Virus record (IMG/VR): IMGVR_UViG_3300007734_000508
Span: 1 to 25,044 of that record
Direction: 5' to 3' (one strand)
DNA length: 25,044 nt
From: a virus
The notes beneath the pieces are model-generated. The model did no database searches. It saw only the letters and a program-made list of their open reading frames with translations, and was not told where the DNA came from. The position numbers and the translations under genes were made by a program. This document shows, in pieces, positions 5,405 to 22,464 of this stretch (position 1 is its first letter; each line of letters starts with the position of its first letter).

Positions 5405-5578
5405 TCAAGCTTCGGCGCCTTTCTCTTCAGCTTTACGCTTCATTTTGGCCTTCTGAGCCTTCCGAAGCGCTTCTTTGCGCTTCATTTTGGAGTGCTCTTC
5501 CGACTTTTCGCCTTGCTCACCGCCTTTTTCTTTTGATTCAAAGTGCTTCCGGAGCGCTTCGGGCATTTTTTCAGCCAT
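5405..5578 (-). CDS. Small highly charged Lys/Glu-rich protein
   Basis: This 57-residue protein opens MAEKMPEALRKHFESKEKG and continues as a Lys/Glu/Arg-rich helix with two near repeats (KMKRKEALRKAQK, KMKRKAEEKG). A longer frame with a start at 5638 exists, but the ATG at 5576-5578 is preferred because it overlaps the glycosyltransferase stop by 8 nt, an arrangement repeated at 6971-6978. Similar short charged proteins often accompany phage portal genes, but no function is established. It could bind nucleic acid or aid assembly. Confidence 0.65.
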   Translation of the reverse strand: MAEKMPEALRKHFESKEKGGEQGEKSEEHSKMKRKEALRKAQKAKMKRKAEEKGAEA

Positions 5579-6413
5579 TGGGTAAAAGATACTGGCGGAC
5601 TCTTTCAAGTTTAAACAATTCTGGCGGCAAAAGCTCATGCGGATAGGCTTCCAGAATGTGATCGCAACGTCCCAGAGGGTCTGTACCGCCAGCTTTTGCT
5701 TTGTAGTTATCTAAATGCGCCAACATTTCGTCACTGTTAGCCGGGGCTACAGAATTCGGGATGTCGTCAAAACAATGCGAGAACGAAGTGACCTTACGTT
5801 TCATGCGATTTGCATCTCCCATCCAAGAAAAATGCCAACCGGCATCGCAATCCCCGACAACAAGATCATTCGGATTCATCCGGATCTGGGAAGGGGTTTG
5901 CTCTAAATGTTCATACAGAACCACGGTGCCGCAAGTCCAATTATTGGGGGCTTTGGAGTTGTCCCCGTGGGGATCCTTGACCCTTAAATCAGCGCGCCCA
6001 TAAAACATAGGCATTGACAGGCGAACACAACGTGATGCGTCGGTTTTTGCAATCTCTACAGCTTCAAGAAGTTTTTCGGGTTTTGGTATTTCATCTACGT
6101 CACTAAAGAAAAAGACCGAATCCGGAGGACACATCCGCATACCAACCCCAAGAGCATCACGCTGCGCGTATTCCCGAGACCAGGGAATTGAGCACTCCTC
6201 GGGCGTTGGCAGTTCAACGTGTAAAACCTGAAGTTTTTCTTCAGGCAACCCAAGTTCTCGAATTGTGTCTACACAGGTAAAAGGTTTGGGGTCGCCACGG
6301 AAGGTACGATTGCCGTCCGTAATGATGAACCCATCTACAACGTCTTTGAGAATGTTATATCTGAGCTCTAAAAGCTCTTTTTCGTCAAAATATAGAAAAC
6401 AATCGAACAGCAT
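5571..6413 (-). CDS. Glycosyltransferase family 17
   Basis: This 280-residue protein has the hallmark order of GT17 (the family of beta-1,4-GlcNAc transferases such as GnT-III). MLFDCFLYFDEKELLELR at the start is followed by VDGFIITDGNRTFRG (26-40), the metal-binding DVDEIP (105-110), and AGWHFSWMGD (191-200) followed by SFSH. It would move a sugar from a nucleotide-sugar onto an acceptor glycan. Acceptor and donor cannot be read from sequence. It sits between two small genes upstream of the portal, suggesting a virion-linked role. A TATACT hexamer (6434-6439) lies just upstream, but a preceding gene is close enough for co-transcription. Confidence 0.9.
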   Translation of the reverse strand: MLFDCFLYFDEKELLELRYNILKDVVDGFIITDGNRTFRGDPKPFTCVDTIRELGLPEEKLQVLHVELPTPEECSIPWSREYAQRDALGVGMRMCPPDSVFFFSDVDEIPKPEKLLEAVEIAKTDASRCVRLSMPMFYGRADLRVKDPHGDNSKAPNNWTCGTVVLYEHLEQTPSQIRMNPNDLVVGDCDAGWHFSWMGDANRMKRKVTSFSHCFDDIPNSVAPANSDEMLAHLDNYKAKAGGTDPLGRCDHILEAYPHELLPPELFKLERVRQYLLPNG

Positions 6414-6439
6414 CTGACGCTGATAAAGCTGTCAGTATA

Positions 6440-6766
6440 CTAACTCTTGACCGCTGTGTTGTAACCCCCTCCAGCACGAATCACTAAGGATCCGTTCGAG
6501 GGGCGACGGCGATCCCGAGCGGAATCAAGCAACTCCCGTTTCAAGCTTTCTAAGTTGTCTGCAGGACCTTGATCTTGTCCATAAGGTCCTGATTGAGGCG
6601 GCACAGCGCCCTGCATGTAAGAAGTGTCATACCCTGCGTCATAACGTGTATCGTCCATACCCGTACCTTGGATGCGCTCCTGCATTTCAGAAGCACGCTC
6701 CATATCATTGAAAGCAGCGCCAAAAAATTCGCTGGCGCGACCGAAAGGGCTAGTCTGGCGCATCAT
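6440..6766 (-). CDS. Small protein of the head block, unknown function
   Basis: This 108-residue protein has a helical N-terminal third (ASEFFGAAFNDMERASEM), a Tyr/Gly/Asp/Pro-rich middle (DAGYDTSYMQGAVPP) and a basic C-terminal part (LLDSARDRRRPSNGSLVIR). It has no membrane segment and no recognised family. Its ATG overlaps the upstream gene's TGA, so translation is probably coupled. Position between terminase and portal suggests a head-assembly accessory, but that is guesswork from context. Confidence 0.6.
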   Translation of the reverse strand: MMRQTSPFGRASEFFGAAFNDMERASEMQERIQGTGMDDTRYDAGYDTSYMQGAVPPQSGPYGQDQGPADNLESLKRELLDSARDRRRPSNGSLVIRAGGGYNTAVKS

Positions 6767-6978
6767 GAGCTTTTACGTTTAATATACTCGGAAGCTTTAC
6801 GTCTGGCCTCCCGTGCTTTTTCGGTATTAGGAACCTGAGTATTGACCGGTTTGTCTCCACGCGTGGCAGCTTTTTTGCGCTCATCAGTAGCGCGACGCTC
6901 TTCAGGACTTAAAGCCGCCCAAGCTGCTTTAGGCAAATACCGTTCAGTCCTACCTTTTTCGCGAGCTAAATCAGCCAT
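6763..6978 (-). CDS. Small Arg/Lys/Ala-rich protein
   Basis: This 71-residue protein is almost entirely helical and charged. It has YLPKAAWAALSPEERRATDE in the first half and EKAREARRKASEYIKRKSS at the end. The 'LSPEERRATDERK' type of segment is common in small phage proteins of unknown role. The ATG lies within the end of the upstream broken gene, whose TGA at 6971-6973 makes an 8-nt overlap, and its own stop overlaps the next ATG. It is probably a small nucleic-acid- or assembly-associated protein; not identifiable further. Confidence 0.65.
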   Translation of the reverse strand: MADLAREKGRTERYLPKAAWAALSPEERRATDERKKAATRGDKPVNTQVPNTEKAREARRKASEYIKRKSS

Positions 6979-7192
6979 AAAGTTTTCCAGCCATTAAAGC
7001 TCTATCAGTTAATGCTTTAGCTAAAAGAGCATCTTTGGTGTAATCAACCAAGCCACTCATAATCGAAGTTTGACTCGTAGTTGTTGCAGAGCTAAGCCAA
7101 GAGGCAAAATCTTATGCTTCTGGAAGAGCACGCTCTCTAAAAGTCGAACCTCCGCTTAAAGCCGTAATTAAATCCGAAGCAGAGTAGTTCAT
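6971..7192 (-). pseudogene. Small phage gene with an internal in-frame TAA (26 + 46 residues)
   Basis: ATG at 7190-7192 overlaps the upstream gene's TGA (ATGA). The frame reads 26 residues (MNYSASDLITALSGGSTFRE and a short continuation), meets TAA at 7112-7114, then stays open for 46 more residues (DFASWLSSATTTSQTSIMSG and onward, ending MAGKLYG). It stops at TGA 6971-6973, overlapping the next gene by 8 nt. Both ends are coupled to neighbours exactly as in intact genes here, so the whole 74-codon frame looks like one gene with a nonsense codon. Alternatives are a sequencing error, read-through, or re-initiation at ATG 7058-7060 giving the last 28 residues. Function unknown. Confidence 0.65.
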
Positions 7193-7422
7193 TTTTTGTC
7201 CTTAGACTTTTCGTACTCTTCGCGGGTTTGCCAGTCTTCCTCGCCCCACCGGGTAAGCCGATTTTCGGAAGACTTTTTACCTTCGTAGGTTCCACCCATT
7301 TCTTTATAATACTTAGTCGCCAACTGCATGGCTCGTGCACTGTGGCCACCGAGTTTTTTTCGGGCTTTGGCCTTAGCGCGTGCCCACTTCTCGGGATCTC
7401 GTTTTTTAGCAATTTCGGCCAT
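7189..7422 (-). CDS. DUF5872-like small protein
   Basis: This 77-residue protein begins MAEIAKKRDPEKWARAKAKA. It contains WSAR-type spacing in GGHSARAMQLATKYYKEMGG and then KKSSENRLTRWGEEDWQTRE. The order (charged 'KKRDPE.W' start, 'SARkaQLA.kyYKe.GG.Y.GkK', 'L..W..EdW.T') matches the small DUF5872 domain found in phages and large DNA viruses. That assignment is from memory of the family pattern. Function unknown. It sits 3 bp after the preceding stop, and its TGA overlaps the next ATG. Confidence 0.75.
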   Translation of the reverse strand: MAEIAKKRDPEKWARAKAKARKKLGGHSARAMQLATKYYKEMGGTYEGKKSSENRLTRWGEEDWQTREEYEKSKDKK

Positions 7423-7425
7423 GGT

Positions 7426-7710
7426 TTAATAGAGCACGTAGCAGTGATCGACAGTTGAAGTGCCGCTGATTTGAGTTATGGATATAGGAAGCAAGATATC
7501 AGTCCGAATATGACTAAAAGTAATAGGTGACTTGGAGTCAGCCAAAAGCACAACTAAAGTTTTATCCGTGTTTTTATTCGCGCTCTCGATATAAACACCT
7601 CGACAAGCAGCAAAATTACTATTAGTGCCCGAAGCATTTACAAGAAACCCACTGGTATACGGCAGCGAGGCTGTCTGTGCGTATACACCCCCAAACGCTC
7701 TAACGTCCAT
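7426..7710 (-). CDS. Small beta-rich virion-type protein
   Basis: This 94-residue protein has the pattern of a common small phage structural family: an aromatic start, a strand ending in a 'CRGVYI' turn (35-41), a variable loop, then 'TLVVLLADSKSPITFSHI' and a closing 'LPISITQISGT...VLY'. That layout ('RGlYvg..g.v.v...dg..vtf..v..G..lPv.v..v...gT.a..i.aLY') is familiar from small spike-base or decoration-like phage proteins. It is therefore likely a virion component, though the family is recalled by pattern only. It lies 3 bp before the DUF5872-like gene in a tight run downstream of the terminase. Confidence 0.6.
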   Translation of the reverse strand: MDVRAFGGVYAQTASLPYTSGFLVNASGTNSNFAACRGVYIESANKNTDKTLVVLLADSKSPITFSHIRTDILLPISITQISGTSTVDHCYVLY

Positions 7711-7712
7711 AT

Positions 7713-8018
7713 TTAATCCAGTGTCTCTATCAGTTTAACCAGATATTCGACAGCTTTTTGCAGATCTTGTTTTCCATTTTTTTGTTCCCACCGCCACAAA
7801 TATTTTTGGGCGCAGCCCTCTAAATACCCTTGGTACTTGATTAAACCCATGGAAGCTCTCTGTACGTCGTAACACTCCAGACCGCCTTTCTTGTAATAAT
7901 TTGGCCGAACTGCCGGATCTTCAACCTGCAACGTTAAACCACCAAATTGTGGCTCCGCGCTGTTCCAGAAATCGTCGAAGTCTGTAGGCGTCGCTTCGGT
8001 GAAGGGTTTGTCGCTCAT
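7713..8018 (-). CDS. DUF3310 protein (nucleotide-kinase-like phage family)
   Basis: The 101-residue product from ATG 8016-8018 contains the DUF3310 signature: RPNYYKKGGLECYDV, then a helix with YQGYLEGCAQKYLWRWEQKN and QDLQKAVEYLVKLIE. DUF3310 is widespread in phages and has been linked to phage T7 gp1.7, a nucleotide kinase, so a role in nucleotide metabolism is possible. A GTG start at 8063 would add 15 residues with no family resemblance, so the ATG is preferred. It sits between the terminase-glycosyltransferase pair and a small virion-type gene. Confidence 0.82.
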   Translation of the reverse strand: MSDKPFTEATPTDFDDFWNSAEPQFGGLTLQVEDPAVRPNYYKKGGLECYDVQRASMGLIKYQGYLEGCAQKYLWRWEQKNGKQDLQKAVEYLVKLIETLD

Positions 8019-8079
8019 TTTTGCCGTTAAAGTAGTAGCAAATGTGGACGTACTCCGCTCCACGTGGGACCACTTTAGG

Positions 8080-8952
8080 TTACAAAACGAGCATCTCCTC
8101 TACACATAGTAAATCTTTTTCACGCTCTTTAAATTGTCGTGAATATTTGTCGTCGTCATGACAAATTAGACCGCACTCTAAAATGCGATAACTGTCTTTA
8201 TGTTTTACGACAGGCACACAGCGCCTGTGTTCAAAGTTAGGAGGTAAGTATTCAAACGCCAATCCCATAGAGCTGCGATCAGCTATTGGCCAGTTTCTAA
8301 TGCCCGTTTTGGCATAGCTTTTTTGAGGATCAAAGCTGTCGGAACGTATATAAAGCTCGCCATCATTTTGATCAAGGATCATTCCGCAGTAATACGGACT
8401 TCCGAGCTGAATAAAGAAATCGATCTCGTGGTCGACGACAAGAATTTTCGGAACCGTAAAGCCAATATTGTGCCAAACATCCGGAGTTTCTTTAGTTAAA
8501 TACCACTTCTCGTAATTACCAACCGGGACACGTTTACCTTCAAAATTCTCATAAAGAGCAAATCCAGGCTCCAATCCATAACGACTTAAAACAGGTTTCC
8601 ATTTTCTGTAATAGTCAAAATTGTCTTTACGGATCAGAACATCGTTCTCTTGGTAGATGTAATAATCCGCCACGCGATTCAAAACTGCCAAAGCCAGATC
8701 TGTTTTATGAGCCCATGTCAAATACCAACCTTCATACTCAGGCCCCGCAACTCTCACCTCGACATTAATATTTTTAAATTGTTCAAATAATGTATCTAAT
8801 GTCTCTACGTCCTCCTGAGCTTCGTAATTTATATAAATATGTATATCTAAATTATGTTTGAACTTGTCGTACTCAGACAACACATTTAGAAGCGGGTTTA
8901 TGCGCTCTAAAGGATTATGGGCAGTAATAGCAACCCAGATATTTTTAGTCAT
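8080..8952 (-). CDS. Putative GT-A type glycosyltransferase
   Basis: This 290-residue protein starts TKNIWVAITAHNPLERINPL, a nucleotide-sugar-binding type first strand, and contains DYYIYQENDVLI, which looks like the acidic metal-binding strand of GT-A enzymes (E-N-D in place of D-x-D). Further on are IGFTVPK and YYCGMILDQNDGELY. I infer a glycosyltransferase but cannot name a family. The ATG at 8950-8952 lies 1 bp past the terminase TGA; an in-frame TTG at 8964 is less likely. Directly following the terminase gene, it is the first of the sugar-modifying genes in the head transcript. Confidence 0.6.
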   Translation of the reverse strand: MTKNIWVAITAHNPLERINPLLNVLSEYDKFKHNLDIHIYINYEAQEDVETLDTLFEQFKNINVEVRVAGPEYEGWYLTWAHKTDLALAVLNRVADYYIYQENDVLIRKDNFDYYRKWKPVLSRYGLEPGFALYENFEGKRVPVGNYEKWYLTKETPDVWHNIGFTVPKILVVDHEIDFFIQLGSPYYCGMILDQNDGELYIRSDSFDPQKSYAKTGIRNWPIADRSSMGLAFEYLPPNFEHRRCVPVVKHKDSYRILECGLICHDDDKYSRQFKEREKDLLCVEEMLVL

Positions 8953-8953
8953 G

Positions 8954-10474
8954 TCAGTACTCAATGCTGAAGTTGCCTCGACGCTGTAAATATTGGATCA
9001 GCCAAGTGTAGGCGTCTAGCAAATCGTCATGAGCTGTCGCGCCGACGTTGATCAACTGATCGAACAAAGCGTCGAACTTACGGTACTTATTGAACACGAT
9101 TTTCTTGTTTTCTAGCAAACCTAAAGTTCCTCGGAAACGGGCGATCTTATCCCCTCTAAAACCTTTAACTTCGTGAATATTAAGATTGCCTAAATCACGC
9201 TCATTTATAAGAACACGTCTTAGGTCAGCCGCAAGCGAAGCTTGGTACGCCACAGATTCCACAACCAACGTCACTGTGGAATAAGTCGGCATAAACTGCC
9301 CGTCGTGCTGAGTGAGGATACCCCACTCCAAAAGCATGTCGCAGAGTAAATCGATTTTCTCCAGGTTTCCGATCGAACGACATTGATGCGCGTCGATGAT
9401 GTAGTACTTATCGCCTAACCGACCGCCAAGAACGAAGGCTGTGTAATCGCTCGTTTCATTCTTACTGGCTGAAAGATCGATACCGACAGCAAGCGAATCG
9501 AACTCGGTAACAACCTCACCTTTAACTAGAAGATCAGGCGAAACCACCAGATCTGAGGTCATAACTGGCTGTTGTTGATACTGGAAAGCAAATGCCACGG
9601 GGTCCAGCTCTTTCTGCGTCAACAAATATTGAGACGACCATTGTTCGGGCCAATAGCTAACGGGTTCGCCGTTGTTGTCGTAAGTAATAGCCTCCTGAGT
9701 TACTTGTTTCCAGCCTTTTTCAGGAACAAACATTGTTTTATGAATATCTAGGGGGTGAAATCGAGTACCCAGGCATATGGATCGCCCACCTTCAAACACA
9801 ATCGGCGCGATAACAGACGACCAGTTATTGTTCATTTCGTCTCGGATCGCAGGGTTCTTAATATCCGCGCTCGACTTAATAGGGTCATCGACAATAACCA
9901 GATGAGCACGCTTTGAAGTAATCGAACCTCGTAGACCAGCAGCACGTAACGTAAATTCTTCATCGCCGAGCCTAGGAATACCCGCATAATCGAAATCGAT
10001 CGACCAGCCGATATCTGACTGCATACCTGACTTCAGCTGTACCCGAGGAAAAACTTTCCTAAACTCAGGTGAATCGATCAGCTGGCGGATGATTCGACTC
10101 TTCGGAATAGCCGTGGCAATGTTGTAAGAAACATAAATAATCTGTAACGGCATTTTAGCCGTTGTGTGCTTACCGATAATCCACGCTGTAAACATGTTCA
10201 AGCAGGTACTTTTCGCGCTCCCGCGTGGAGCCAAGATATCTAAGTTCGGTCCAGCAATATCAAGTAGATACTTATTGGACTCACCAGTAATTAAGTGGCG
10301 ATGCCACTCCAACATGTGCTTTGCCGGCGGTTTATCAAGGAGCGTACAGAAAGTATGGAAATCATCTGCTGCTTTTTTGTATATCGTGTCAACACCTGAT
10401 CCAGTGTCTTCAGTAGCACGAAGTGCACGCATTTGAGCTGCACGACGATATGCAGATGTTTCCCGGCTAGGCAT
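8954..10474 (-). CDS. terL: Terminase large subunit
   Basis: This 506-residue packaging motor has both expected domains. The ATPase has Walker A APRGSAKST (82-90), Walker B HLVIVDDP (191-198) and the coupling motif LGTRFH (235-240). The RNase-H-like nuclease has GIDLSAS (331-337, Asp333), VVESVAY (404-410, Glu406) and HDDLLDA (482-488). It cuts concatemeric DNA and drives it through the portal. It leads the leftward head block; no clear small subunit lies beside it. The ATG start has no strong Shine-Dalgarno sequence. Transcription must start in the 53-bp gap shared with the divergent glycosyltransferase gene or come from further right. Confidence 0.97.
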   Translation of the reverse strand: MPSRETSAYRRAAQMRALRATEDTGSGVDTIYKKAADDFHTFCTLLDKPPAKHMLEWHRHLITGESNKYLLDIAGPNLDILAPRGSAKSTCLNMFTAWIIGKHTTAKMPLQIIYVSYNIATAIPKSRIIRQLIDSPEFRKVFPRVQLKSGMQSDIGWSIDFDYAGIPRLGDEEFTLRAAGLRGSITSKRAHLVIVDDPIKSSADIKNPAIRDEMNNNWSSVIAPIVFEGGRSICLGTRFHPLDIHKTMFVPEKGWKQVTQEAITYDNNGEPVSYWPEQWSSQYLLTQKELDPVAFAFQYQQQPVMTSDLVVSPDLLVKGEVVTEFDSLAVGIDLSASKNETSDYTAFVLGGRLGDKYYIIDAHQCRSIGNLEKIDLLCDMLLEWGILTQHDGQFMPTYSTVTLVVESVAYQASLAADLRRVLINERDLGNLNIHEVKGFRGDKIARFRGTLGLLENKKIVFNKYRKFDALFDQLINVGATAHDDLLDAYTWLIQYLQRRGNFSIEY

Positions 10475-10527
10475 ATCACTAAGTTGACACTATCGCTATA
10501 TTACTCGTATCTGAACACCTTTCAGGA
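10475..10527. promoter_or_regulatory. Divergent promoter region between terminase and GT4 genes
   Basis: This 53-bp gap separates two divergent genes, so it should carry promoters both ways. On the plus strand a consensus TTGACA (10492-10497) is followed after 18 bp by TATCTG (10516-10521), very close to the ATG at 10528; AGGA lies immediately before that ATG. On the minus strand TAATAT is a possible -10, with no good -35. Confidence 0.45.
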
Positions 10528-11700
10528 ATGGCCAAAATTCTTTGGTACGGTGATGCGTGCTGTAATACAGGGTTTGCCCGAGTAACACACAGTGTCCTAG
10601 AGCAACTGCAGAAGGAGCACGAAATTCATGTATTAGCTATTAATTACTCTGGTGACCCTCATAATTATCCATACACCGTATACCCTGCCTCCAACGTCAA
10701 CTGTGGGGATCGGTTCGGTATCCCACGGATTCCCGAAATTCTTGAGAAAGTAAAACCAGATATCTTCATATGCCTTCAGGACATCTGGATTTGCAATCAA
10801 GTTTGGGAACGTTGCCAGTTCCTAAAAGATAGCCTCAAATTTAAATTTATTTGTTATTTCCCCATCGACAGCGAGTCCTACATGCCGGACATGCTGCGCA
10901 ATATCCCGGAATGGGATATGGCAATCACCTTCACCATCGAGTGCGCGCAGCGGATCTTAAAACACGAAATCAAACCGTCCCGCTTAGGTGTGCTTCCCCA
11001 CGGGGTCGACATCGATAAATTCACACCGGGTTCCCGCTCAGAAGCCCGCAAAGCTTTTGGGTTACCCGAGGACAAATTTATCGTTCTTAACGCCAACCGC
11101 AATCAACCGCGTAAACGCATCGATTTGACTATCAAAACCTTCGCGAAATTTGCGGCTAATAAACCCGACACCATGTTGTACCTCCATATGGGGGCTAAGG
11201 ATATGGGCTGGGACATTATTCCGCTCTTTAAATACGAGATGCAAAAGTTGGGTCTCGACGGAACCAATCGCCTGATCCTGACCTCGCACCAAATGAATTA
11301 CCTAGATGCGCCGTCAGACGCTGTACTTAACCAGATTTACAACTGTTGTGACGTAGGTATAAATACAGCAGATGGGGAAGGCTGGGGTCTAGTTCCTTTT
11401 GAGCACGCGAGCTGCAAAAAACCTCAGGTCGTGCCAAACCACACCGCGTGCGCCGATATTTGGGATGGCGCCGCCCAACTTGTGGACATCGCGACGTGGT
11501 ACGTCGATAAAGATCTGGGCGTCGAGCGCGGCCTTATTGACGTAAACGACGCAGTTAAAAAACTAGACGAACTGTATTACGACAAAGATATTTATGACGA
11601 AGTAGCTGAAGCGTGCTACACCGTGACCCGGCGTAATGAATATCGCTGGGAAAGTGTTGCCGCTGGATTCTCTCACGCCATCAAAGATCTTCTCGCCTGA
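10528..11700 (+). CDS. GT4-family glycosyltransferase (GT-B fold)
   Basis: This 390-residue protein has both GT-B domains. The N-terminal one opens MAKILWYGDACCNTGFARVT (GFARV loop at 15-19). The linker region has LPHGVD (156-161), and the C-terminal donor-binding domain has NANRNQPRKRIDL (188-200) and GEGWGLVPFEHASC (283-296), the E-x7-E-type motif of GT4. It would transfer a sugar from an activated donor. It is followed after 3 bp by the GH130-like gene on the same strand, so the two probably work on one glycan. The pair runs against the flanking virion genes, as an inserted cassette would. Confidence 0.93.
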   Translation: MAKILWYGDACCNTGFARVTHSVLEQLQKEHEIHVLAINYSGDPHNYPYTVYPASNVNCGDRFGIPRIPEILEKVKPDIFICLQDIWICNQVWERCQFLKDSLKFKFICYFPIDSESYMPDMLRNIPEWDMAITFTIECAQRILKHEIKPSRLGVLPHGVDIDKFTPGSRSEARKAFGLPEDKFIVLNANRNQPRKRIDLTIKTFAKFAANKPDTMLYLHMGAKDMGWDIIPLFKYEMQKLGLDGTNRLILTSHQMNYLDAPSDAVLNQIYNCCDVGINTADGEGWGLVPFEHASCKKPQVVPNHTACADIWDGAAQLVDIATWYVDKDLGVERGLIDVNDAVKKLDELYYDKDIYDEVAEACYTVTRRNEYRWESVAAGFSHAIKDLLA

Positions 11701-11703
11701 TCC

Positions 11704-12783
11704 ATGCAGTCAACCACACGCTTTTTTCACGCACACAGCAGCGTTCTTTACCCGATCAAACGCCCTACAACGGGTATACCCGATGTATATACACAGGCCG
11801 ACAATTTAAACGGTGTATTTACGCGGATTAATTACGGACTCCCCGAGGGTTCCGTAGCGAACTTCAGCCCCTCAATCCTTAAACACAAAAACAAAACTTA
11901 CATAGCGTGGCGATCTCAGCCCGAGCCTTTTGGGTTCCGTTGGGACAACAACTATTTTTATTTAAACGACAAGCCTACGGATATTTACCTGGGGCTTCTG
12001 CACGATGATCAAACCGTTGTAGGCGCTAAAAATCTTCGTCCCAAAAAACACCGCCTTAGCTACGAAGATCCTCGACTGTTTATCGGTCCAGATGATGACG
12101 TTTATGTTCAGTTTGTCGCATCGACTTACGCAAGCCGACACAATAAGCACGGGCGCAACTTCTTCGATAATCCCAAAGTTGTTGTTTGTTACGTCGACGC
12201 CTTAGGCGAAGCATCGCAAGCTGCGATACCTCCTATTGGTGAGAATCGTACCAAAGATAAAACCGAGAAAAACTGGTGTTTCTTTACGCATAAAGAAGAA
12301 CTTAAGTGTTTGTACTCAACGCGTCCACTGGTGATTGAGTGCGAAAGAAATCCCCGCGTAGAAATTGATTCTTCGGTATTGGACGTAGTTACGCACGGGT
12401 CTCCCACTTTTAATTCCACAGCGCCAATCAATCTTGGGTATGCCCACTTAGTTTTTTACCACTGGAAACATATGGCGCGGAGACAAAACGGAACTCCGTA
12501 CCTTTTATATCACTTAAGTGCGTATTTAATTGATAAAGATTTTAAGAATATTACACACGTTATCAAGCGTCCTTTGTTCTCAGGATCCCTTAATGATGAG
12601 TTGATTTATTGGACAGATTACGGCGGCACGCCTTTGTCCAATCAGCCTGCCGTTATCCTGCCGTTCGGCGCATACATCGAGAACACAGACTTAGTGATGT
12701 CCCTGGGCGTAAACGACGCTTTTATGGGAATTATGCGTTGTCCGCTGGAATCGATTATGAAGCAGCTTGAACGCGTAAGCTAG
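11704..12783 (+). CDS. GH130/GT108-like beta-propeller enzyme
   Basis: This 359-residue protein reads as a five-bladed propeller of the GH130 phosphorylase group: NFSPSILKHKNKTYIAWR (53-70), SYEDPRLF (119-126), EKNWCFF (188-194), GSPTFNS (232-238), GYAHLVFYH (245-253) and a final SLGVNDAFMGIM. The Asp of the EDPR motif corresponds to the usual catalytic acid. GH130 enzymes cleave beta-mannosides, often with phosphate; the related GT108 enzymes build mannan. The pairing with a GT4 gene makes synthesis or trimming of a mannose-type glycan a reasonable idea, but the substrate is not visible. Its stop shares the CTAG at 12780-12783 with the facing gene. Confidence 0.72.
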   Translation: MQSTTRFFHAHSSVLYPIKRPTTGIPDVYTQADNLNGVFTRINYGLPEGSVANFSPSILKHKNKTYIAWRSQPEPFGFRWDNNYFYLNDKPTDIYLGLLHDDQTVVGAKNLRPKKHRLSYEDPRLFIGPDDDVYVQFVASTYASRHNKHGRNFFDNPKVVVCYVDALGEASQAAIPPIGENRTKDKTEKNWCFFTHKEELKCLYSTRPLVIECERNPRVEIDSSVLDVVTHGSPTFNSTAPINLGYAHLVFYHWKHMARRQNGTPYLLYHLSAYLIDKDFKNITHVIKRPLFSGSLNDELIYWTDYGGTPLSNQPAVILPFGAYIENTDLVMSLGVNDAFMGIMRCPLESIMKQLERVS

Positions 12784-13310
12784 CTCTTCTCCTCGCGTTC
12801 AATCGTCGACCACACGAGGAACGACGAATCATCTAAGAGAGTTTGAATTGCAGGCTGACCATCGAAAGTCTGCATCAACTCTCTTAGACAACGGTCGGCA
12901 CCGGCTAGCAGTAGCCCACGGCGATCTAAACCATCAGAGATAGAACGCACCGCCTGAATATGCGAACGCAGCTCCTTCTGAAGGGCGGAGATCTTAGTGG
13001 CTGCTGTGGCGTGATCCAACATACCGGTCAGCGTCATATTTCGAACGTTATCGATATCTTGTTTAATACCGTCAATTTCAATTAAGAGGATCTTACGAAG
13101 ATCTTCTTTAGGGTATTTCTCCTGAACCCAAGCGGTCAGATCGGAGATACTTCCGGTATATCCGGGCTGTAAAAATCGTGCGTATAAATACGCCTCAATA
13201 TCGCTGGTTGCGTTTTTTGCGTAAAAAACGAAAGCGTCTTTTTGAGATTTATCGAGACTAGCTAACCAGGAAGCGACAGTAGTCGAATCACCTACTTGAG
13301 ATTTGATCAC
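12780..13310 (-). CDS. Helical protein after internal virion genes; possible small terminase
   Basis: This is a 176-residue, mostly helical protein. The N-terminal part (SWLASLDKSQKDAF, then SISDLTAWVQEKYPKEDL) could hold a helix-turn-helix, followed by a long helix (KILLIEIDGIKQDIDNVRNM) and a C-terminal helical region. Small terminase subunits often combine an N-terminal DNA-binding part with a central helical oligomerisation part, and no other small-subunit candidate is visible. This is a weak call; a virion accessory protein is equally possible. The GTG start overlaps the upstream TGA (GTGA). Confidence 0.55.
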   Translation of the reverse strand: MIKSQVGDSTTVASWLASLDKSQKDAFVFYAKNATSDIEAYLYARFLQPGYTGSISDLTAWVQEKYPKEDLRKILLIEIDGIKQDIDNVRNMTLTGMLDHATAATKISALQKELRSHIQAVRSISDGLDRRGLLLAGADRCLRELMQTFDGQPAIQTLLDDSSFLVWSTIEREEKS

Positions 13311-14014
13311 GCGAAAGCTCGTTGACCTGCAAGAGCCATTCCAGCACCAAAACGCTTAAGTGCCAACTGCCCTTCAATATTTCCACGCTGAAGAGCAAGT
13401 TGATTACGAGTCTGTTCTTGCTGACGGCGTATATCTAAATTGGTTGCTGCGATATCGCCAGCAAGTTTATTTGAAGTCCGTTGAGCTTCGGTCGCCATAG
13501 TGGCTAAAGCTGTAGCGGCAGGAGTCAGCAGCGTGGTCTGACCTTTCAGACCTTCGGTAGCTAGTTCCTGAACACCCTGAGCATATTGACGGGTAAGAGC
13601 AGATGCCGTTTCAGGTCCAAGCATTTCGGTAGCTAACCGAGCCTTACCGGCTAAGTCACCAAGCCCGATTGCGCTGCTGGCGTATTGAGAAGCAATCCCA
13701 GCTTGTAAACCGGAAAGGGTTTGTTCCTTTTGCTTAGCTACATCGAACTGATCGTAAGCCGCTTGACCTAGGACTTTTGATTGAATTGCTTCAGTACCCG
13801 TAAAAGGCGCCATCAACGAAGCCAATTCAGTTGCAGCTGTGGTTAGAGGAGTAACACCGGCAGTCAGCCCTCCATACAAGCTTGCGAAATCAGTCCCCGC
13901 ACTTTGGCTTCCTCCGCCTCCACCAAATGCACCTAAAACGGAACCTAGACCAGAAAGGGCCATGCCCCCTCCAGCTAACCAAGCAGCGGGACCAGCAAGT
14001 AACGGAACAGCCAT
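13307..14014 (-). CDS. Ala/Gly-rich probable internal virion protein
   Basis: This 235-residue protein has a Gly/Ala-rich hydrophobic N-terminus (LLAGPAAWLAGGGMALSG, then a run of five Gly). A long Ala/Gln/Thr-rich helical region follows, ending in a Gln/Arg-rich coiled-coil-like stretch (NLDIRRQQEQTRNQLALQRG). It resembles in style the two genes upstream: glycine-zipper-like hydrophobic starts followed by amphipathic helices. That is typical of ejection or internal core proteins that cross the cell envelope with the DNA. The role is inferred from composition and neighbours. Confidence 0.6.
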   Translation of the reverse strand: MAVPLLAGPAAWLAGGGMALSGLGSVLGAFGGGGGSQSAGTDFASLYGGLTAGVTPLTTAATELASLMAPFTGTEAIQSKVLGQAAYDQFDVAKQKEQTLSGLQAGIASQYASSAIGLGDLAGKARLATEMLGPETASALTRQYAQGVQELATEGLKGQTTLLTPAATALATMATEAQRTSNKLAGDIAATNLDIRRQQEQTRNQLALQRGNIEGQLALKRFGAGMALAGQRAFA

Positions 14015-14018
14015 TTGT

Positions 14019-14804
14019 TTACTTTAAAGAAAAAGTGTTGAAAGGAGACAGTGCTGCCTGATAGACACCGCCGAGAGCGCCCATAACTCCTTGGCTGGGC
14101 AACATCGAAGCAGCAATGGTCGACCCAAGAGCAATTTGCTGGCGAGCATTAGCCTCGATACGCGCACGCTCTAATTCCTTCCACGCGTCGATGTTCTGGA
14201 GCTCAATCTGGCGCCGTGAATTCTCTCGGGTCTGGCGCATCGACAGAGCGCTAGTTAACAGAGCACGTTTGATAGCCTGCTCTGTATCTTGCGCCGCTAA
14301 TTTTGCCCGAAGCTCGGGGTCTAAAAGCCGCTCAAGAAGTTTGTTGTAGTAGTCAGTCTGAGGATCAGTGCTCTGACTTGCGGGAGGTTGAGAAGGAAGA
14401 CCCGCTGAAGTCGGGGTCGAAGGGCCGCGAGTTTCCACAGTGCTAGGAGGTTTTTCGGCGGGTTTTTTAGCGCCGCCAAAACGCGACTCTAAAACTTGCT
14501 GTAAACGACGAAACTCGGCTTGTTCGGTAGCGTCAGAGGCTGCTTCTTGCGGCTTCATGGTGCGCGCGGTATCGATGGTTTGATACCCGTACCGTGGACC
14601 CGTATACACCTTTGTGCCAATGTTCGGACCGAAATCTCGTTCTAATCCGATCTGAACAGTATCTGGAGCAGAAGGCTTAGCTGCAGGAGGTTTTGCTCCA
14701 GCACCCATTGCTTGCGCGGCTAAGGCCACCGGGGCCAGAGGAGGCGCTAAATACGGTGCTGCTTGGAGAGCCCAGTTAGCAAAATCGAAGGTTGGATTAG
14801 CCAC
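14019..14804 (-). CDS. Probable internal virion protein
   Basis: This 261-residue protein has an Ala/Pro-rich hydrophobic start (WALQAAPYLAPPLAPVALAA), a Pro/Ser/Thr-rich linker (about 110-150) and a helical, Arg/Gln/Glu-rich C-terminal half (MRQTRENSRRQIELQNIDAW). The start is GTG at 14802-14804. It is fixed by the best Shine-Dalgarno sequence in the window: TAAGGAGG at 14816-14809, whose TAA is the stop codon of the previous gene. Architecture matches its two neighbours, so I read the three as a set of internal or ejection proteins. No enzyme domain is visible. Confidence 0.6.
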   Translation of the reverse strand: MANPTFDFANWALQAAPYLAPPLAPVALAAQAMGAGAKPPAAKPSAPDTVQIGLERDFGPNIGTKVYTGPRYGYQTIDTARTMKPQEAASDATEQAEFRRLQQVLESRFGGAKKPAEKPPSTVETRGPSTPTSAGLPSQPPASQSTDPQTDYYNKLLERLLDPELRAKLAAQDTEQAIKRALLTSALSMRQTRENSRRQIELQNIDAWKELERARIEANARQQIALGSTIAASMLPSQGVMGALGGVYQAALSPFNTFSLK

Positions 14805-14813
14805 GTCGCCTCC

Positions 14814-15623
14814 TTAGATTGCCTTAGCTAACTCGGCAAGAGTTGCGTTATTTTCATAACGCTCCCTTGCAACCACATCTTTAATTGCCTGGTTCAGCAA
14901 GTTAGATGCAGCTCCGTAACTAGATTCTACACGCTGACGTTGAATATCACCCAGCGACTTCTCGCGTTGAGCAGCAACCTCAGCCTGAGATGCAATTCGC
15001 TGACGCTCAATTTCAGCCTGACGAATAATGTTCTCAAGCTGAATACGAATACCGCCTTCCGCCTGAAGCTTTTGAATCTCGCGAGCGGTAGCGCCCGCTA
15101 ATTCCCGCTCTTTACGAGCAGATGATTCTTGAATAAATGCGCCAGCGTCGAAAGATTCGAGAGGCTCTAAACCAGCCGCACTACGGATGGCGTTGTACAG
15201 ATTACGCCGGAGGCTTAACTCTTGCTCACGAGCATATTGCTCAGCAGCAAGAGCTTCACCGGTGGTCGTTAAGAACCCACGGCCAACAGGAGCAACCGAA
15301 GCTTGCGCGTAACTAGGTTCTTTAGCTCCAAAGAGCTTGCTGCCAATAAATTCTGTACCTAACGCCGTGGCTAAAGTTGCTAAAACAGATCCAGTACCAC
15401 CCGCAGCACCCGCAGCACCCGCAGCACCAGCTGCACCGGCAGCGCCCAAACCGCCCGCAGCTAACAAGGGCAGAATCTTGGCAATATCTCCGCCCTCAAA
15501 GCCGGCTTCTTTGAGCTTTGTGACTTGGCCCAGCAAGTCATCTACTTGTTGAACACCGCCCTGAATACCAGCCTGAACACCAGCGCGGGCACCGCCACCA
15601 CCGAAAAAAGGAATTTTAGGCAT
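14814..15623 (-). CDS. Probable internal virion protein with Gly-Ala-Ala repeats
   Basis: This 269-residue protein opens MPKIPFFGGGGARAG. A Gly/Ala segment (about 55-77) made of GAA repeats looks like a glycine-zipper membrane-active stretch. From about residue 130 it is helical and charged, with IRIQLENIIRQAEIERQRIA and further heptad-like sequence to the end. Membrane-active Gly/Ala plus coiled coil suggests an ejected core protein, but this is inference. The start overlaps the preceding stop (TGATG). The repeat region is encoded by 9-bp DNA repeats and may vary in length between relatives. Confidence 0.6.
   Translation of the reverse strand: MPKIPFFGGGGARAGVQAGIQGGVQQVDDLLGQVTKLKEAGFEGGDIAKILPLLAAGGLGAAGAAGAAGAAGAAGGTGSVLATLATALGTEFIGSKLFGAKEPSYAQASVAPVGRGFLTTTGEALAAEQYAREQELSLRRNLYNAIRSAAGLEPLESFDAGAFIQESSARKERELAGATAREIQKLQAEGGIRIQLENIIRQAEIERQRIASQAEVAAQREKSLGDIQRQRVESSYGAASNLLNQAIKDVVARERYENNATLAELAKAI
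15401..15427 (-). repeat. 9-bp tandem repeat coding for Gly-Ala-Ala
   Basis: Three perfect copies of CCGCAGCAC (plus-strand reading) lie end to end, followed by degenerate copies to about 15445. They lie in frame inside the gene at 14814-15623 and encode its GAA repeats, so copy-number changes would alter the protein by three residues at a time. Confidence 0.9.
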
Positions 15624-15856
15624 CAGTAACCTGCCGGATTATCGAAGGATGTGCCCGATAAAGGCTTCTTGTTATAGTTTACACCTTCTGTTTCTGCCTG
15701 CGCCATCACACCCATCAGCTTTTGTTCAGCTGAAGGGAGAGCAGCGGTTTGCGGGAATGTAGAGCGAATGTATAAATCTAGAAACGCCGCAGGATCTAGC
15801 TCCGGCGCAGTTTTACGAACATCACGTTCGCGCAATTGGCGTTCCCGTTCGTTCAT
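15623..15856 (-). CDS. Small protein of the virion block
   Basis: This 77-residue protein has a very charged N-terminus (MNERERQLRERDVRKTAPEL), a short helical part (PAAFLDLYIRSTFPQTA) and a polar end (KKPLSGTSFDNPAGY). It has no recognised family. Gaps to neighbours are 3 bp upstream and a TGATG overlap downstream, so it is translated with the block. It may be a small structural or assembly factor. Confidence 0.6.
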   Translation of the reverse strand: MNERERQLRERDVRKTAPELDPAAFLDLYIRSTFPQTAALPSAEQKLMGVMAQAETEGVNYNKKPLSGTSFDNPAGY

Positions 15857-15859
15857 CGA

Positions 15860-16375
15860 TCAACCGAGCTCTTGATAACGAACAGAAGCAGGGATCGTGG
15901 AGCTGCTCGGAGCATTCAGAAGAGAATACTGACCGCCGTAATTGGGCAGATCATATTCAAGAGGACGTTGCTGACTAAAATACTCACCCGCGTCATCAGC
16001 TTGCTCATTCATGTTCTGGAGAAAGTCCATAAACATAGCCATCACATTAGGATCGTTTAAGATCAACATGATGAGCTCTTCGACTTCGAACTCGTCAGCT
16101 TCATTAACCACACCAGCTTGTAAACGTCGGCCAAGCTGTACGCGAGCTTCTGGCTGAGTATTAGCGGGGTAAGCATTTAACGAACGAGTGGGGCTGGTGT
16201 TCATGCCTTCGCCCTCACGACCTGGCATCGGGGGCGCGGCTTTATAAAAATTCTTAAGTATGACAGCTGTCATCGGCGTAGCAGCTGCACGCTCAGCCGG
16301 AGTTTGCGGGCAAGGCAGACCGACGATGCGAGCCGCTAACTCATAATCCTGAGGAGAGAACACCGGAGCACACAA
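15860..16375 (-). CDS. Unknown protein following the XRE regulator gene
   Basis: This frame encodes up to 171 residues. The most distinctive part is acidic and hydrophobic helical (NEADEFEVEELIMLILNDPN, then VMAMFMDFLQNMNEQADDAG), followed by a Tyr/Pro/Ser tail. The 5' end is uncertain. The longest form begins TTG at 16375 and overlaps the regulator gene by 35 bp; GTG at 16361-16363 is an alternative, and no ATG occurs before residue 35. No family recognised. It lies in the same run as the probable internal virion proteins. Confidence 0.55.
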   Translation of the reverse strand: MCAPVFSPQDYELAARIVGLPCPQTPAERAAATPMTAVILKNFYKAAPPMPGREGEGMNTSPTRSLNAYPANTQPEARVQLGRRLQAGVVNEADEFEVEELIMLILNDPNVMAMFMDFLQNMNEQADDAGEYFSQQRPLEYDLPNYGGQYSLLNAPSSSTIPASVRYQELG

Positions 16376-16625
16376 CTACGTCTAACTCCAGTTTAGACCT
16401 AATCTCTAAAATATCGCCAGGCTGAACTTGTAAGCCAATACATATCCGTTCAAGAACGTCAGGAGACGGTATATACTCCTCATCAGAGTAAATCTTACGC
16501 GTCGTTGTGGGAGATAACTCAGCAATCCGGCTTAAACGAAACGAGGATAAACCGCGCGCGTCTAAAACATCTTTAAGACGATTTATTAATCTTCCGCAGC
16601 TCGGATAAGACGAATAAAAAGGCAT
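16341..16625 (-). CDS. XRE-family (Cro/CI-type) DNA-binding regulator
   Basis: This 94-residue protein consists almost wholly of a five-helix Cro/CI fold: LINRLKDVLDARGLSSF (helix 1), RLSRIAELSPTTTRKIY (the helix-turn-helix), then PSPDVLERICIGLQVQPGDI. The spacing fits the small XRE proteins that repress by binding a palindrome as dimers. A 14-bp palindrome ends 7 bp before its ATG, so it is probably autoregulated. It precedes a set of virion genes on the same strand, suggesting that it times their expression. There is no cleavage or inducer domain, so it is not a LexA- or CI-like switch by itself. Confidence 0.85.
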   Translation of the reverse strand: MPFYSSYPSCGRLINRLKDVLDARGLSSFRLSRIAELSPTTTRKIYSDEEYIPSPDVLERICIGLQVQPGDILEIRSKLELDVVVCSGVLSSGL

Positions 16626-16631
16626 CGGTAT

Positions 16632-16653
16632 ACCAATATATTGGTCTATTGGT
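16632..16653. promoter_or_regulatory. Candidate operator for the XRE regulator
   Basis: ACCAATATATTGGT (16632-16645) is a perfect 14-bp palindrome. A further half-site, ATTGGT, follows at 16648-16653. The palindrome lies 6 bp upstream of the regulator's ATG and abuts the stop codon of the CxxCxxCC gene, so a bound repressor would cover the -10 and ribosome-binding region. Its CAATATATTG core recurs only at 24620-24629. Confidence 0.55.
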
Positions 16654-16987
16654 TTCGATCATAATCGTTTATTAAATAAGATTCATCTAAACCGGCTGCA
16701 CGAATTAGTTGGTTACACGTCTCAGCATTAAGCCGATACCACTCCTCCGTGGAGTACCCCAACAAGACCCCTAATTCGCGGATATTACAGAGAAGAGGTC
16801 TCTCCTCGTAAACCGAGCACCTATTATCTACAAGTTTTTCACACACTCCGTTTGCATCAGCTTTATAAGGAAAATCCTTAACAGCTTGAACGACTATAGG
16901 AAGATTCCTAAATAAGTTAGGCTCTGCCAATATCGCTCCGATTGCGCGACAGCAGAGACTACAGCCCGTACAGGGAAACTCAGACAT
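16646..16987 (-). CDS. YkgJ-like CxxCxxCC metal-binding protein
   Basis: This 113-residue protein opens MSEFPCTGCSLCCRAIG, giving the CxxCxxCC cluster (Cys6, 9, 12, 13). Further cysteines follow at 49, 57 and 67 in GVCEKLVDNRCSVYEERPL, the layout of the YkgJ/UPF0153 family, which is thought to bind zinc or an iron-sulfur centre. No reaction is established for the family. The gene ends at the palindrome before the regulator gene and starts 2 bp after the GT2 gene, so the two are probably co-transcribed. Confidence 0.85.
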   Translation of the reverse strand: MSEFPCTGCSLCCRAIGAILAEPNLFRNLPIVVQAVKDFPYKADANGVCEKLVDNRCSVYEERPLLCNIRELGVLLGYSTEEWYRLNAETCNQLIRAAGLDESYLINDYDRNQ

Positions 16988-16989
16988 AT

Positions 16990-17787
16990 TTAAAAACCTA
17001 AATTCTTGCTGCGCACAAAGTGAAGATCGTAAGTGGTGAAATCAATCGGCAACGTTGGATTATTAAAAGGAGTTTCATAGACTTCACCTTCAATATGCGC
17101 CTGCCACGCAGGGTTCCATTTGGCGTGGAGATACTGTTTATTCATCTCATGCGCGTAGTGAATACCGGCAGCTAACTCAGGCTCGCTCCGCCACGTCTGA
17201 GACCCGTCTTGATAATCGCCTGCAGTTTCACCGTGGTAATAAGGAACCCCAACCGACATGTGCCGCTTCAGCTCTTGATGCTTAAAACGCATCCCGTAAT
17301 CCATATCCTCGCAATAAGCCGGGTACAGATTCTCATCAAATAACCCGAATTTCTGCACAACCCAATCTTTTAAAAGGAAGAAATCCCAGCTCCCGTTCTC
17401 CCCGTGGACGATACCTGTTTCCGCATCCTGGGCGTGCTCCACAGCTTTTGCCAAAAAGCCCGGTGTAAACATCAGATCGTGGTTTGTGATTATCCAATAC
17501 GGCGCCGTCATAAACGACTTGATAATCAGGTTCCATGCCCCCGAGCACCCAATATTGGAAGGCATGTGCGTGACTACCACGCGCTTTACATACTTATGCG
17601 GTATTTTTGTAAGTACATCAAGCTCCTCCGTGATCTGGTTGCGCCCGTTGTTATTAAAGACTACAAAGGTATCAACAGGGTAATCGATACTATAGAACAG
17701 CCTATAGACCCAATGGGGGGCGTTAACGACCGCAGTGCCAATAACAGGTATCGTCATTTCCGCCCGTGGCTGGTAATATGCTAGCAC
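16990..17787 (-). CDS. GT2-like glycosyltransferase
   Basis: This 265-residue protein shows a GT-A pattern of family 2: IPVIGTAVVNAPHWVYRL (13-30), VVFNNNGRN (42-50), SNIGCSGAWNLII (77-89) and WIITNHDLMFTPGFL (98-112), in which NHD holds the place of the metal-binding D-x-D. A later YPAYCEDMDYGMR segment is the usual acidic acceptor-side motif. It probably adds a sugar to a glycan. Two starts are possible: GTG 17785-17787 with AGGA four bases upstream, or ATG 17755-17757 with GGGCGG upstream. It is divergent from the FkbM methyltransferase gene with 15 bp between them. Confidence 0.82.
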   Translation of the reverse strand: MLAYYQPRAEMTIPVIGTAVVNAPHWVYRLFYSIDYPVDTFVVFNNNGRNQITEELDVLTKIPHKYVKRVVVTHMPSNIGCSGAWNLIIKSFMTAPYWIITNHDLMFTPGFLAKAVEHAQDAETGIVHGENGSWDFFLLKDWVVQKFGLFDENLYPAYCEDMDYGMRFKHQELKRHMSVGVPYYHGETAGDYQDGSQTWRSEPELAAGIHYAHEMNKQYLHAKWNPAWQAHIEGEVYETPFNNPTLPIDFTTYDLHFVRSKNLGF

Positions 17788-17802
17788 TAAATCCTAGCTT
17801 TA

Positions 17803-18522
17803 ATGGCGACTTACTTCTGGGGCCCGGAGAAGCGGCTTATTGTTCCCACGCCTGACTTGGCGTTCCTGATGCACGACGACGACTCCGGTCGTTGCCAGAT
17901 GCACCAAGTTGGTGTGCCCGAACTTGCCATCATCCAATGGGCCTCCCAAAACTTTGCCGACAAAGAAAAAATCTTTATCGACTGTGGCGCGCACATGGGC
18001 GCTTACTCCATCTTGCTTTCAGAGCACTTCAACACAGTTCATGCTTTTGAAGCCCAGACGCGCACGTACTACCAGCTCTGTGGCAACATCTTCATCAACG
18101 AAAAACAAAACATCATTCCTCACCACGAGGCGGTTACCAACATCACCGAAGCCAATCAAACTGTAACCCTGCACGTGGTTTCAGAAGATGGCGGCGGGTC
18201 AACAATTCGTGTTCCGCAAAAAGGCCAAAACGTTCTGGGCCACGAGAAAGTACGAACTGTCACGATCGACCACTACCACTTCAACCATGTCGGGCTGATC
18301 AAATTAGATATCGAGGGCAACGAACTCAAAGCCCTGCACGGCGCACGGTATACGTTAGAGCGCAACAACTTCCCCCCGATCATTTTCGAAGCCAACAACG
18401 ACGCGTGGTTCGAGCCTGAGAAAAAAGATCTCTTCGACCACCTGAAATCTTTAAATTATCAGATCGCCGAAATCCGCCCGTTCGACAATATGTACGTAGC
18501 AATCAACAATCCAAATCAATAA
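17803..18522 (+). CDS. FkbM-family methyltransferase
   Basis: This 239-residue protein has IDCGAHMGAYS (59-69, SAM-binding loop), VHAFEAQ (79-85, ribose-binding Glu) and LIKLDIEGNE (165-174), the FkbM hallmark, followed by IIFEAN. FkbM enzymes methylate hydroxyl groups, often of sugars in polysaccharides and glycolipids. With a glycosyltransferase gene divergent from it, glycan O-methylation is a reasonable guess. The 3' end overlaps the dCMP deaminase gene by 20 bp tail-to-tail. A TAATAT hexamer at 17774-17779 could serve as its -10. Confidence 0.92.
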   Translation: MATYFWGPEKRLIVPTPDLAFLMHDDDSGRCQMHQVGVPELAIIQWASQNFADKEKIFIDCGAHMGAYSILLSEHFNTVHAFEAQTRTYYQLCGNIFINEKQNIIPHHEAVTNITEANQTVTLHVVSEDGGGSTIRVPQKGQNVLGHEKVRTVTIDHYHFNHVGLIKLDIEGNELKALHGARYTLERNNFPPIIFEANNDAWFEPEKKDLFDHLKSLNYQIAEIRPFDNMYVAINNPNQ

Positions 18523-22374: not shown

Positions 22375-22391
22375 GTTCAAAAAATGAACAT
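22373..22391. promoter_or_regulatory. Inverted repeat over the start codon of the Cys-rich gene
   Basis: ATGTTCA (22373-22379), five A, then TGAACAT (22385-22391) form a 7-bp stem with a 5-nt loop in either strand's transcript. On the minus strand the second arm contains the ATG of the 22168-22374 gene, and the first arm touches the 3' end of the tRNA gene. It may limit translation or mark tRNA processing. Confidence 0.35.
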
Positions 22392-22463: not shown

Positions 22464-22464
22464 G

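Follow-up and report, generated by a model that had tools for sequence, protein, structure and literature searches.

Sugar enzymes among the virion genes of an uncultured phage

The window, a stretch of 25,044 nucleotides (IMG/VR record IMGVR_UViG_3300007734_000508), is part of the genome of an uncultured relative of Synechococcus phage S-EIV1. It carries the following features.

3-296, minus strand: N-terminus of the major capsid protein, truncated at the contig end and almost identical to the first 98 residues of the relatives' capsid protein
2002-2679, minus strand: accessory class-I methyltransferase, 225 aa, with weak, sub-threshold matches
3139-5373, minus strand: portal protein (phrog_20475, E 1e-162; phrog_64 portal, E 6e-8; 41% to S-EIV1)
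5571-6413, minus strand: GT17-family glycosyltransferase, 280 aa, upstream of portal (PF04724)
8080-8964, minus strand: GT-A-fold glycosyltransferase outside the named families, 294 aa (AlphaFold2 fold match)
8954-10474, minus strand: terminase large subunit (phrog_38, E 3e-76; 52.6% to S-EIV1)
10528-11700, plus strand: GT4 glycosyltransferase, 390 aa, divergent from terminase (PF00534, phrog_2170)
11704-12783, plus strand: GH130-like enzyme with a five-bladed propeller, 359 aa, separated from GT4 by 3 nt
16990-17787, minus strand: GT2 glycosyltransferase, 265 aa (PF00535, phrog_29879)
17803-18522, plus strand: FkbM methyltransferase, 239 aa, starting 15 nt from the GT2 start (PF05050, TIGR01444)
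18503-18943: dCMP deaminase

The capsid protein of the relatives matches the major head protein family phrog_1357. All six sugar-enzyme genes are full open reading frames with the same coordinates as in the earlier note, and the set proposed there (GT17, GT-A, GT4, GT2, GH130/GT108-like, FkbM) proved real in its entirety, with catalytic motifs intact. GT17 scores 60 bits against PF04724 (cut-off 26) and carries a DxD metal motif, S104-D105-x-D107-E108, that is invariant in 57 sequences. GT4 passes PF00534 (32.8 bits; cut-off 26.4), matches phrog_2170 (E 8e-49) and has an E284-x7-E292 motif invariant in 64 sequences. GT2 passes PF00535 (28 bits; cut-off 23.3), matches phrog_29879 and keeps an acidic metal motif in which N102-H103-D104 and E160-D161 are both invariant. 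The methyltransferase FkbM scores 54 bits against PF05050 and 78 bits against TIGR01444 (cut-off 37.7); its SAM-binding motif D60-x-G62-A63-H64-M65-G66 is invariant, as is D169-x-E171-G172.

The GT-A gene, which shares its first 11 nt with the end of the terminase gene, encodes a protein for which Pfam, PHROG and NCBIfam profiles all gave no match. Its AlphaFold2 model (pLDDT 87) has a GT-A fold, with Z scores of 11-12 to SpsA, LH3, ManGT and others, the top matches being tied, and the motif E106-N107-D108 is invariant. Since the modelled fold is clearly GT-A, partial matches of the protein's profile to influenza hemagglutinin among solved structures (E 0.0055 or weaker) were taken as chance.

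The GH130-like enzyme has in common with the GH130 mannoside phosphorylases and mannosidases and with the GT108 mannosyltransferases a five-bladed propeller (model pLDDT 83; Z 23 to GH130, ~20 to GT108, ~17 to GH43) and an EDPR-type motif, here the invariant E121-D122-x-R124, with D122 as the candidate catalytic Asp. Unlike them, it falls below the curated PF04041 cut-off (20.3 bits; cut-off 26). Of the three basic positions that profile alignment places opposite the phosphate-binding residues of GH130 phosphorylases, the Arg varies while K189 and H253 are kept. Profile comparison by hhalign aligned it with planctomycete GH130, including the EDPR motif (probability 94%, E 1.6e-7), while its profile matched none of the sequences of solved structures at E 1. 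A search across 84,980 species genomes returned one weak planctomycete match, so that a cellular donor cannot be named; the family is almost without cellular relatives found.

Enzymes of the GH130 and GT108 families act on soluble manno-oligosaccharides, and GT4 shows a weak likeness, far under the NCBIfam cut-off, to mannosylglucosylglycerate synthase and MshA. Together with the apparent solubility of every enzyme, this speaks for a soluble small molecule or oligosaccharide, such as a compatible-solute-type glycoside or a methylated saccharide, made for infection and attached to neither virion nor cell surface. We give this reading a low probability: in unrelated phages, too, a related GT4 is found close to terminase or portal (below), and five glycosyltransferases plus GT47 exceed the needs of known solute pathways.

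The other methyltransferase of the earlier note (2002-2679) is an open reading frame with weak methyltransferase matches (PF01596, 19.5 bits, cut-off 22; PF13578, 19.8 bits, cut-off 26.3), but it does not belong to the core, being present in 6 of 31 groups. A defense-system reading was also tried and dropped, the sole PADLOC match being one of 18 bits to this accessory gene.

A collinear gene set at the core of one clade

Presence was counted in non-redundant contig groups covering both sides of a slot, out of 68 groups overall. GT17 was present in 52 of 52 such groups, the GT-A enzyme and GT4 each in 63 of 63, the GH130-like enzyme in 61 of 61, GT2 in 33 of 33 and FkbM in 23 of 25, and in each of nine larger relatives (9/9) the six genes keep both slot and strand. 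Given these counts and the fixed slots and strands, co-location is not a matter of chance, and a single clade has all six as core genes in collinear order. The search for the same gene set in related phages, which the earlier note had proposed, found it near-never lost and with no scattering seen. Decay, too, was looked for in the relatives and not seen: the catalytic motifs are invariant, and dN/dS values of 0.02-0.07 for the sugar enzymes (few pairs) indicate purifying selection.

A seventh glycosyltransferase, GT47, is also core; it lies outside the window, in a hypervariable region, and occurs in 10 of 10 records of at least 65 kb. The sugar set stays constant while a region resembling tail fibre genes varies. 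RmlA/B/D adjoins FkbM in some relatives, and an extra methyltransferase occupies the slot between GT2 and FkbM in others. The spacer between terminase and GT4 measures 52-54 nt in most relatives; what looked in six of them like an extra sugar gene between the terminase and GT4 matches was instead an intein-like insertion within the terminase.

The sugar genes are indeed dispersed in the virion block rather than gathered in one cluster, occupying four separate slots on two strands. The claim that several are co-transcribed with virion genes fits, by strand, half of the set: the strand of terminase and portal holds only GT17, the GT-A gene and GT2, with GT17 always there, whereas GT4 (209/209 loci), the GH130-like gene (190/190) and FkbM (63/63) always run opposite to the late genes. 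When intergenic sequence was searched for enriched k-mers, as a sign of a promoter motif common to sugar and late genes, only weak -10-like words emerged. The antisense position of half of the set is an observation that tells against a role in the virion.

Separate slots on two strands, and the weak correlation between GT17 and terminase distances (r 0.25), are what one might see if these were independent morons with unrelated roles that came to lie in one region by chance. We consider this very improbable, as GT17, GT-A, GT4, GH130-like and GT2 genes are missing from no slot-covered contig group and the sister clade is without all but GT4, save one GT2-family match.

Sister clade and other phages

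GT17 and GH130/GT108-like enzymes had been described as uncommon in phages, and the database search agrees: matches to GT17 came from 8 of 50,697 phage records, each with an identity of ~26%, and the GH130-like enzyme matched none. The GT-A protein likewise had no match among the 50,697 records.

S-EIV1 (KJ410740), of the sister clade, resembles the window phage in its capsid protein (69%), terminase (53%), portal (41-43%) and GT4 (42%). It differs in carrying GT4 elsewhere, and GT17, GT-A, GH130-like, GT2, FkbM and GT47 were not found in it. Throughout the sister clade the sugar set is absent from the virion block (0 of 62 loci), while GT4 occurs in 7 of 7 records, elsewhere in the genome. 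GT4 is the ancestral and oldest member of the set.

In two unrelated phage lineages, too, a GT4 relative and a methyltransferase lie close to terminase or portal. In S-CBS4-type cyanosiphoviruses a related GT4 (45%) lies with a GT2 and a methyltransferase behind the portal, and in Tetrasphaera phage TJE1 the order NTP transferase, kinase, epimerase, FkbM, GT4 (31%) precedes terminase, portal and capsid. Both differ from the window phage in having unrelated terminases and portals and a compact cassette on the late strand; GH130-like and GT-A homologues were not found in the S-CBS4 relatives. Two placements run against a virion role: the GT4 of S-EIV1 lies outside the head block, and the GT17 relative found in other cyanophages, such as S-H68, lies inside a gathered nucleotide-sugar cluster.

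A candidate pathway for a methylated virion glycan

The earlier note had suggested that the sugar enzymes act during virion assembly. The part that stands is a set dispersed in the virion block and near-never lost; the parts that fall are co-transcription beyond three genes and core membership of the 2002-2679 methyltransferase. The clade does conserve soluble phage-encoded glycosyltransferases alongside its virion genes, and we judge it an even call whether cytosolic phage enzymes make a methyl-capped glycan on a virion protein. In favour of this reading count the fixed presence, order and strand of the set, its invariant motifs and low dN/dS, its constancy beside variable fibre-like genes, the GT4 cassettes of S-CBS4 and TJE1, and the RmlA/B/D genes and extra methyltransferase of some relatives.

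The six window enzymes and GT47 would then constitute a single phage-encoded cytosolic glycosylation pathway, producing a short O-methylated glycan on a capsid, cement or fibre protein before or during assembly in infection, with mainly host sugar nucleotides as donors. GT4 would probably add an early sugar, to be extended by GT2, the GT-A enzyme, GT17, GT47 and probably the GH130-like enzyme, acting as a mannosyl-type transferase or a reverse phosphorylase, and FkbM would methylate the glycan. In some relatives the pathway may also include donor synthesis of the dTDP-rhamnose type and an additional methylation. The unity of the pathway, its step order, its sugars and its virion-protein acceptor are all inferred. 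A Ser/Thr-rich C-terminus was sought in the major capsid protein, against that of the sister clade without the set, and not found.

The enzymes might instead modify a host surface glycan during infection (cyanobacterial LPS core or exopolysaccharide), for instance to block superinfection or to keep progeny from sticking to debris. Multi-enzyme sugar clusters of marine myophages are usually read in this manner, pelagimyophage glycosyltransferases having been assigned to the host O-chain, and the gathered cluster around the S-H68 relative of GT17 and the hypervariable surroundings of GT47 fit it as well; the antisense GT4, GH130-like and FkbM genes would allow earlier expression. We nevertheless find it rather unlikely. 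The initiating lipid-carrier transferase PF02397 is absent from 10 relatives of 65-87 kb (0/10), and the window enzymes have no membrane-spanning stretch (no hydrophobic 19-residue window above 1.2). Moreover, genes directed at O-antigen would be expected to differ from host to host, but this set is invariant in the clade, and its genes are interspersed among virion genes rather than forming a single island. A host-polysaccharide target, named in the earlier note as refuting the virion reading, is thereby weakened.

Phage glycosyltransferases that add diverse glycans to DNA have been reported (Pyle et al. 2024, as cited in PMC12619734), and the dCMP deaminase at 18503-18943 would suit glycans on modified phage DNA bases that shield them from host nucleases. 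This seems scarcely probable here: none of the 10 relatives of 65-87 kb has a member of the thymidylate-synthase/hydroxymethylase family PF00303, one of them having ThyX instead, and FkbM capping is atypical for DNA sugars.

Building on the virion-protein pathway, we tentatively propose, at clearly less than even confidence, that virions of this cyanophage clade bear a conserved methyl-capped glycan as a constant particle component, made by seven core enzymes, expanded from one ancestral GT4 and forming a bacteriophage counterpart to the chlorovirus capsid glycan. Jointly with this proposal, and as tentatively, the GH130-like enzyme would be the first propeller of its kind among phage glycosyl enzymes. 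Should the enzymes act on the particle, phages widespread in aquatic habitats would carry a sugar coat of their own making as a constant part of the virion, with a bearing on particle stability, adsorption and host range. Sister phages, whose capsid proteins are ~69% identical, carry GT4 alone of the set, and a comparison of virions from both clades could reveal what the other enzymes contribute. The clade in any case supplies a set of soluble, uncharacterized glycosyl enzymes.

Comparison with known virion glycosylation

In the mycobacteriophages Che8 and Rita, phage-encoded glycosyltransferases are reported to place glycans on capsid and tail-tube proteins (Freeman et al. 2023, as cited in PMC11256854 and PMC12619734). 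The same sources describe an experimentally proven target and, in Maravista, genes near the genome end. The window phage differs in having seven core enzymes in several slots, GH130-like and FkbM among them, with a presumed target and with no capsid tail seen. A further parallel, and like the mycobacteriophage glycans a precedent for the virion-protein reading, is the capsid N-glycan of the chlorovirus PBCV-1, built by several mostly soluble viral glycosyltransferases and capped by methyltransferases at its terminal rhamnose (PMC9614988). PBCV-1 is a eukaryotic virus and uses other enzyme families; we draw the likeness without claiming kinship.

Kinship of the window

The terminase of this 25,044-bp viral contig best matches that of Synechococcus phage S-EIV1 (52.6% over the full protein; the runner-up reaches about 25%), and S-EIV1 matches were also obtained for the portal, the GT4 and the gene at 12780-13310. 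Together with the start of a major capsid protein encoded at 3-296, these matches identify the window, on sequence grounds, as a fragment of an uncultured S-EIV1-related phage. Its nearest cultured relative infects Synechococcus, and a host would be assigned solely through this kinship.

A dispersed enzyme set fixed in the clade

Three anchors were used to gather relatives: the GT-A protein, the GH130-like protein and, as a neutral marker, the terminase. They yielded 228 loci, which fall into 68 groups, no two of which had an identical 400-bp stretch in common. With counts restricted to groups whose sequence extends past a slot on either side, we found GT17 in 52/52 groups, GT-A in 63/63, GT4 in 63/63, the GH130-like gene in 61/61, GT2 in 33/33 and FkbM in 23/25, compared with 64/64 for terminase and 36/36 for portal. 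Among accessory genes, the methyltransferase at 2002-2679 was present in 6/31 groups and a CxxCxxCC protein in 15/38. Terminase-anchored loci taken alone gave the same order, with gaps largely at contig ends, and the complete set of six, collinear, is present in nine larger relatives of 42-87 kb. A GT47/exostosin gene occurs in 10/10 records of at least 65 kb, records lacking it being fragments under 52 kb. By these counts the enzyme set is a fixed trait of the window's clade, and GT47 is a core gene too. One relative, G002, has its GT47 at L087:1646-2518 (minus strand), within a hypervariable region, and gave a sulfotransferase-family match (PF13469), not pinned to one gene, elsewhere in L086-L088.

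The six sugar enzymes listed in the earlier note are real. Profile matches lie above curated cut-offs for GT17, GT4, GT2 and FkbM; the 8080-8964 protein has no family match, and its model (pLDDT 87) adopts a GT-A fold (Z 11-12). The 11704-12783 protein scores under the GH130 cut-off, its model (pLDDT 83) matches GH130 best (Z 23), ahead of GT108 (about 20) and GH43 (about 17), and alignment of its profile with that of 21 GH130 proteins from planctomycetes (E 1.6e-7) covers most of the propeller, pairing the phage EDPR with the planctomycete EDPR. Of the three positions that align with the phosphate site, two are retained while the Arg varies, so phosphorylase, transferase and hydrolase are all candidate activities. 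Decay in relatives, which would speak against the note's reading, left no sign: the residues expected for metal binding, acid-base function and SAM binding do not vary (26-64 sequences per family), and dN/dS is 0.02-0.07 (few pairs).

At all loci compared, GT17, GT-A and GT2 lie on the terminase strand and GT4, GH130-like and FkbM never do; GT-A overlaps or closely follows the terminase in most relatives. The proposed co-transcription with virion genes thus fits the first three enzymes and not the other three.

In the S-EIV1 sister clade, none of the six enzymes was found in the corresponding block; 80 loci were covered, of which 62 include both terminase and portal. All seven sister records of 52-88 kb keep a single GT4 (42-45%), which in S-EIV1 is far from the terminase; FkbM and GT47 were not found in these seven, and one has a GT2-family match. 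The simplest reading would make GT4 ancestral, with the other enzymes acquired in separate slots by the window's clade and then retained. Enzyme protein distances track those of the terminase (r 0.25-0.66), GT17 being least congruent.

Further features of the window and its relatives

In G002, RmlD, RmlB and RmlA genes (dTDP-rhamnose type) lie between dCMP deaminase and FkbM (L084:17007-19689); parts of this set occur in a few other relatives (L012/L166, L010, L036, L035) and it is absent from the window. The GT2-FkbM slot of some relatives (L010, L034, L059) holds an additional small methyltransferase, with PF13578 above cut-off in L010 and a weak RMNT_CmcI match (a resemblance to rhamnosyl O-methyltransferase). 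It is preceded by the palindromic TATAGTGGCACTATA, which L043 has as well without having the gene.

Over about 500 nt (3139-3644, minus strand) the 3' end of the portal gene is shared with a second reading frame on the same strand:

2733-3644, minus strand, 303-aa protein whose N-terminal half overlaps the portal 3' end in another frame

Across 33 relatives, substitutions by codon position are 0.43/0.19/0.39 in the overlap versus 0.29/0.06/0.65 in portal-only sequence, a pattern that constraint on both frames would produce; the second frame also has an S-EIV1 match. Six relatives (L203, L217, L128, L151, L162, L167) carry an intein-like terminase insertion of about 1.2-1.3 kb after ILAPRG or ILSPRG, immediately ahead of the Walker A region; the S-EIV1 terminase has a roughly 1-kb insertion at a different site, and the window terminase has none.

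A 147-aa ORF antisense to the late strand (409-852, plus strand), flanked by the capsid gene and the gene at 849-1601, gave no Pfam match; distant copies at other positions in some relatives and in S-EIV1 suggest that it may be mobile. Window tRNA genes Leu(taa) and Met(cat) lie side by side at 22391-22540 (minus strand). In S-EIV1 (KJ410740), the major capsid protein runs on the plus strand from about 60859, where the deposited annotation places a hypothetical minus-strand gene (60784-61545).

Likely target of the sugar enzymes

The earlier note suggested that the enzymes glycosylate, for example, capsid or fibre proteins; we give the virion about an even chance of being their target. Unrelated phages also have a related GT4 in their head module. 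In S-CBS4 and relatives the order is portal, gp13, GT4, head genes later, with GT2 and a methyltransferase next to GT4 in about half of 34 contigs; in the actinophage TJE1 it is NTP transferase, kinase, epimerase, FkbM, GT4, several small genes, terminase, portal, capsid. No membrane-spanning stretch was found in the window enzymes, and neither the lipid-carrier initiator PF02397 nor the base-modifying enzyme PF00303 in 10 relatives of 65-87 kb; the set is constant while putative host-recognition genes vary. All of this points towards an acceptor that is cytosolic and produced along with the virion. Against a virion target, the capsid protein, compared with that of the sister clade, lacks a Ser/Thr-rich tail, the S-EIV1 GT4 lies outside the head block, a GT17 relative in another cyanophage belongs to a cluster of nucleotide-sugar genes gathered in one place, and the glycosyltransferases of pelagimyophages have been assigned to host O-chains.

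Methyl capping of the glycan, likewise proposed in that note, is suggested by FkbM, by the extra methyltransferase in some relatives and, in a small number of them, by the presence of RmlA/B/D next to FkbM. The GH130-like enzyme matched no other phage record searched, and we found no precedent for the set in a partial coverage of the literature. Virus-encoded virion glycosylation as such is already known; what appears new is a dispersed, near-invariant seven-enzyme set with a GH130-like enzyme in a cyanophage clade. The glycan proposed here from genes alone would resemble those reported on the capsid and tail of mycobacteriophages (PMC11256854, PMC12619734) and also the capsid glycan of PBCV-1, on which enzymes of the virus methylate a terminal rhamnose (PMC9614988).
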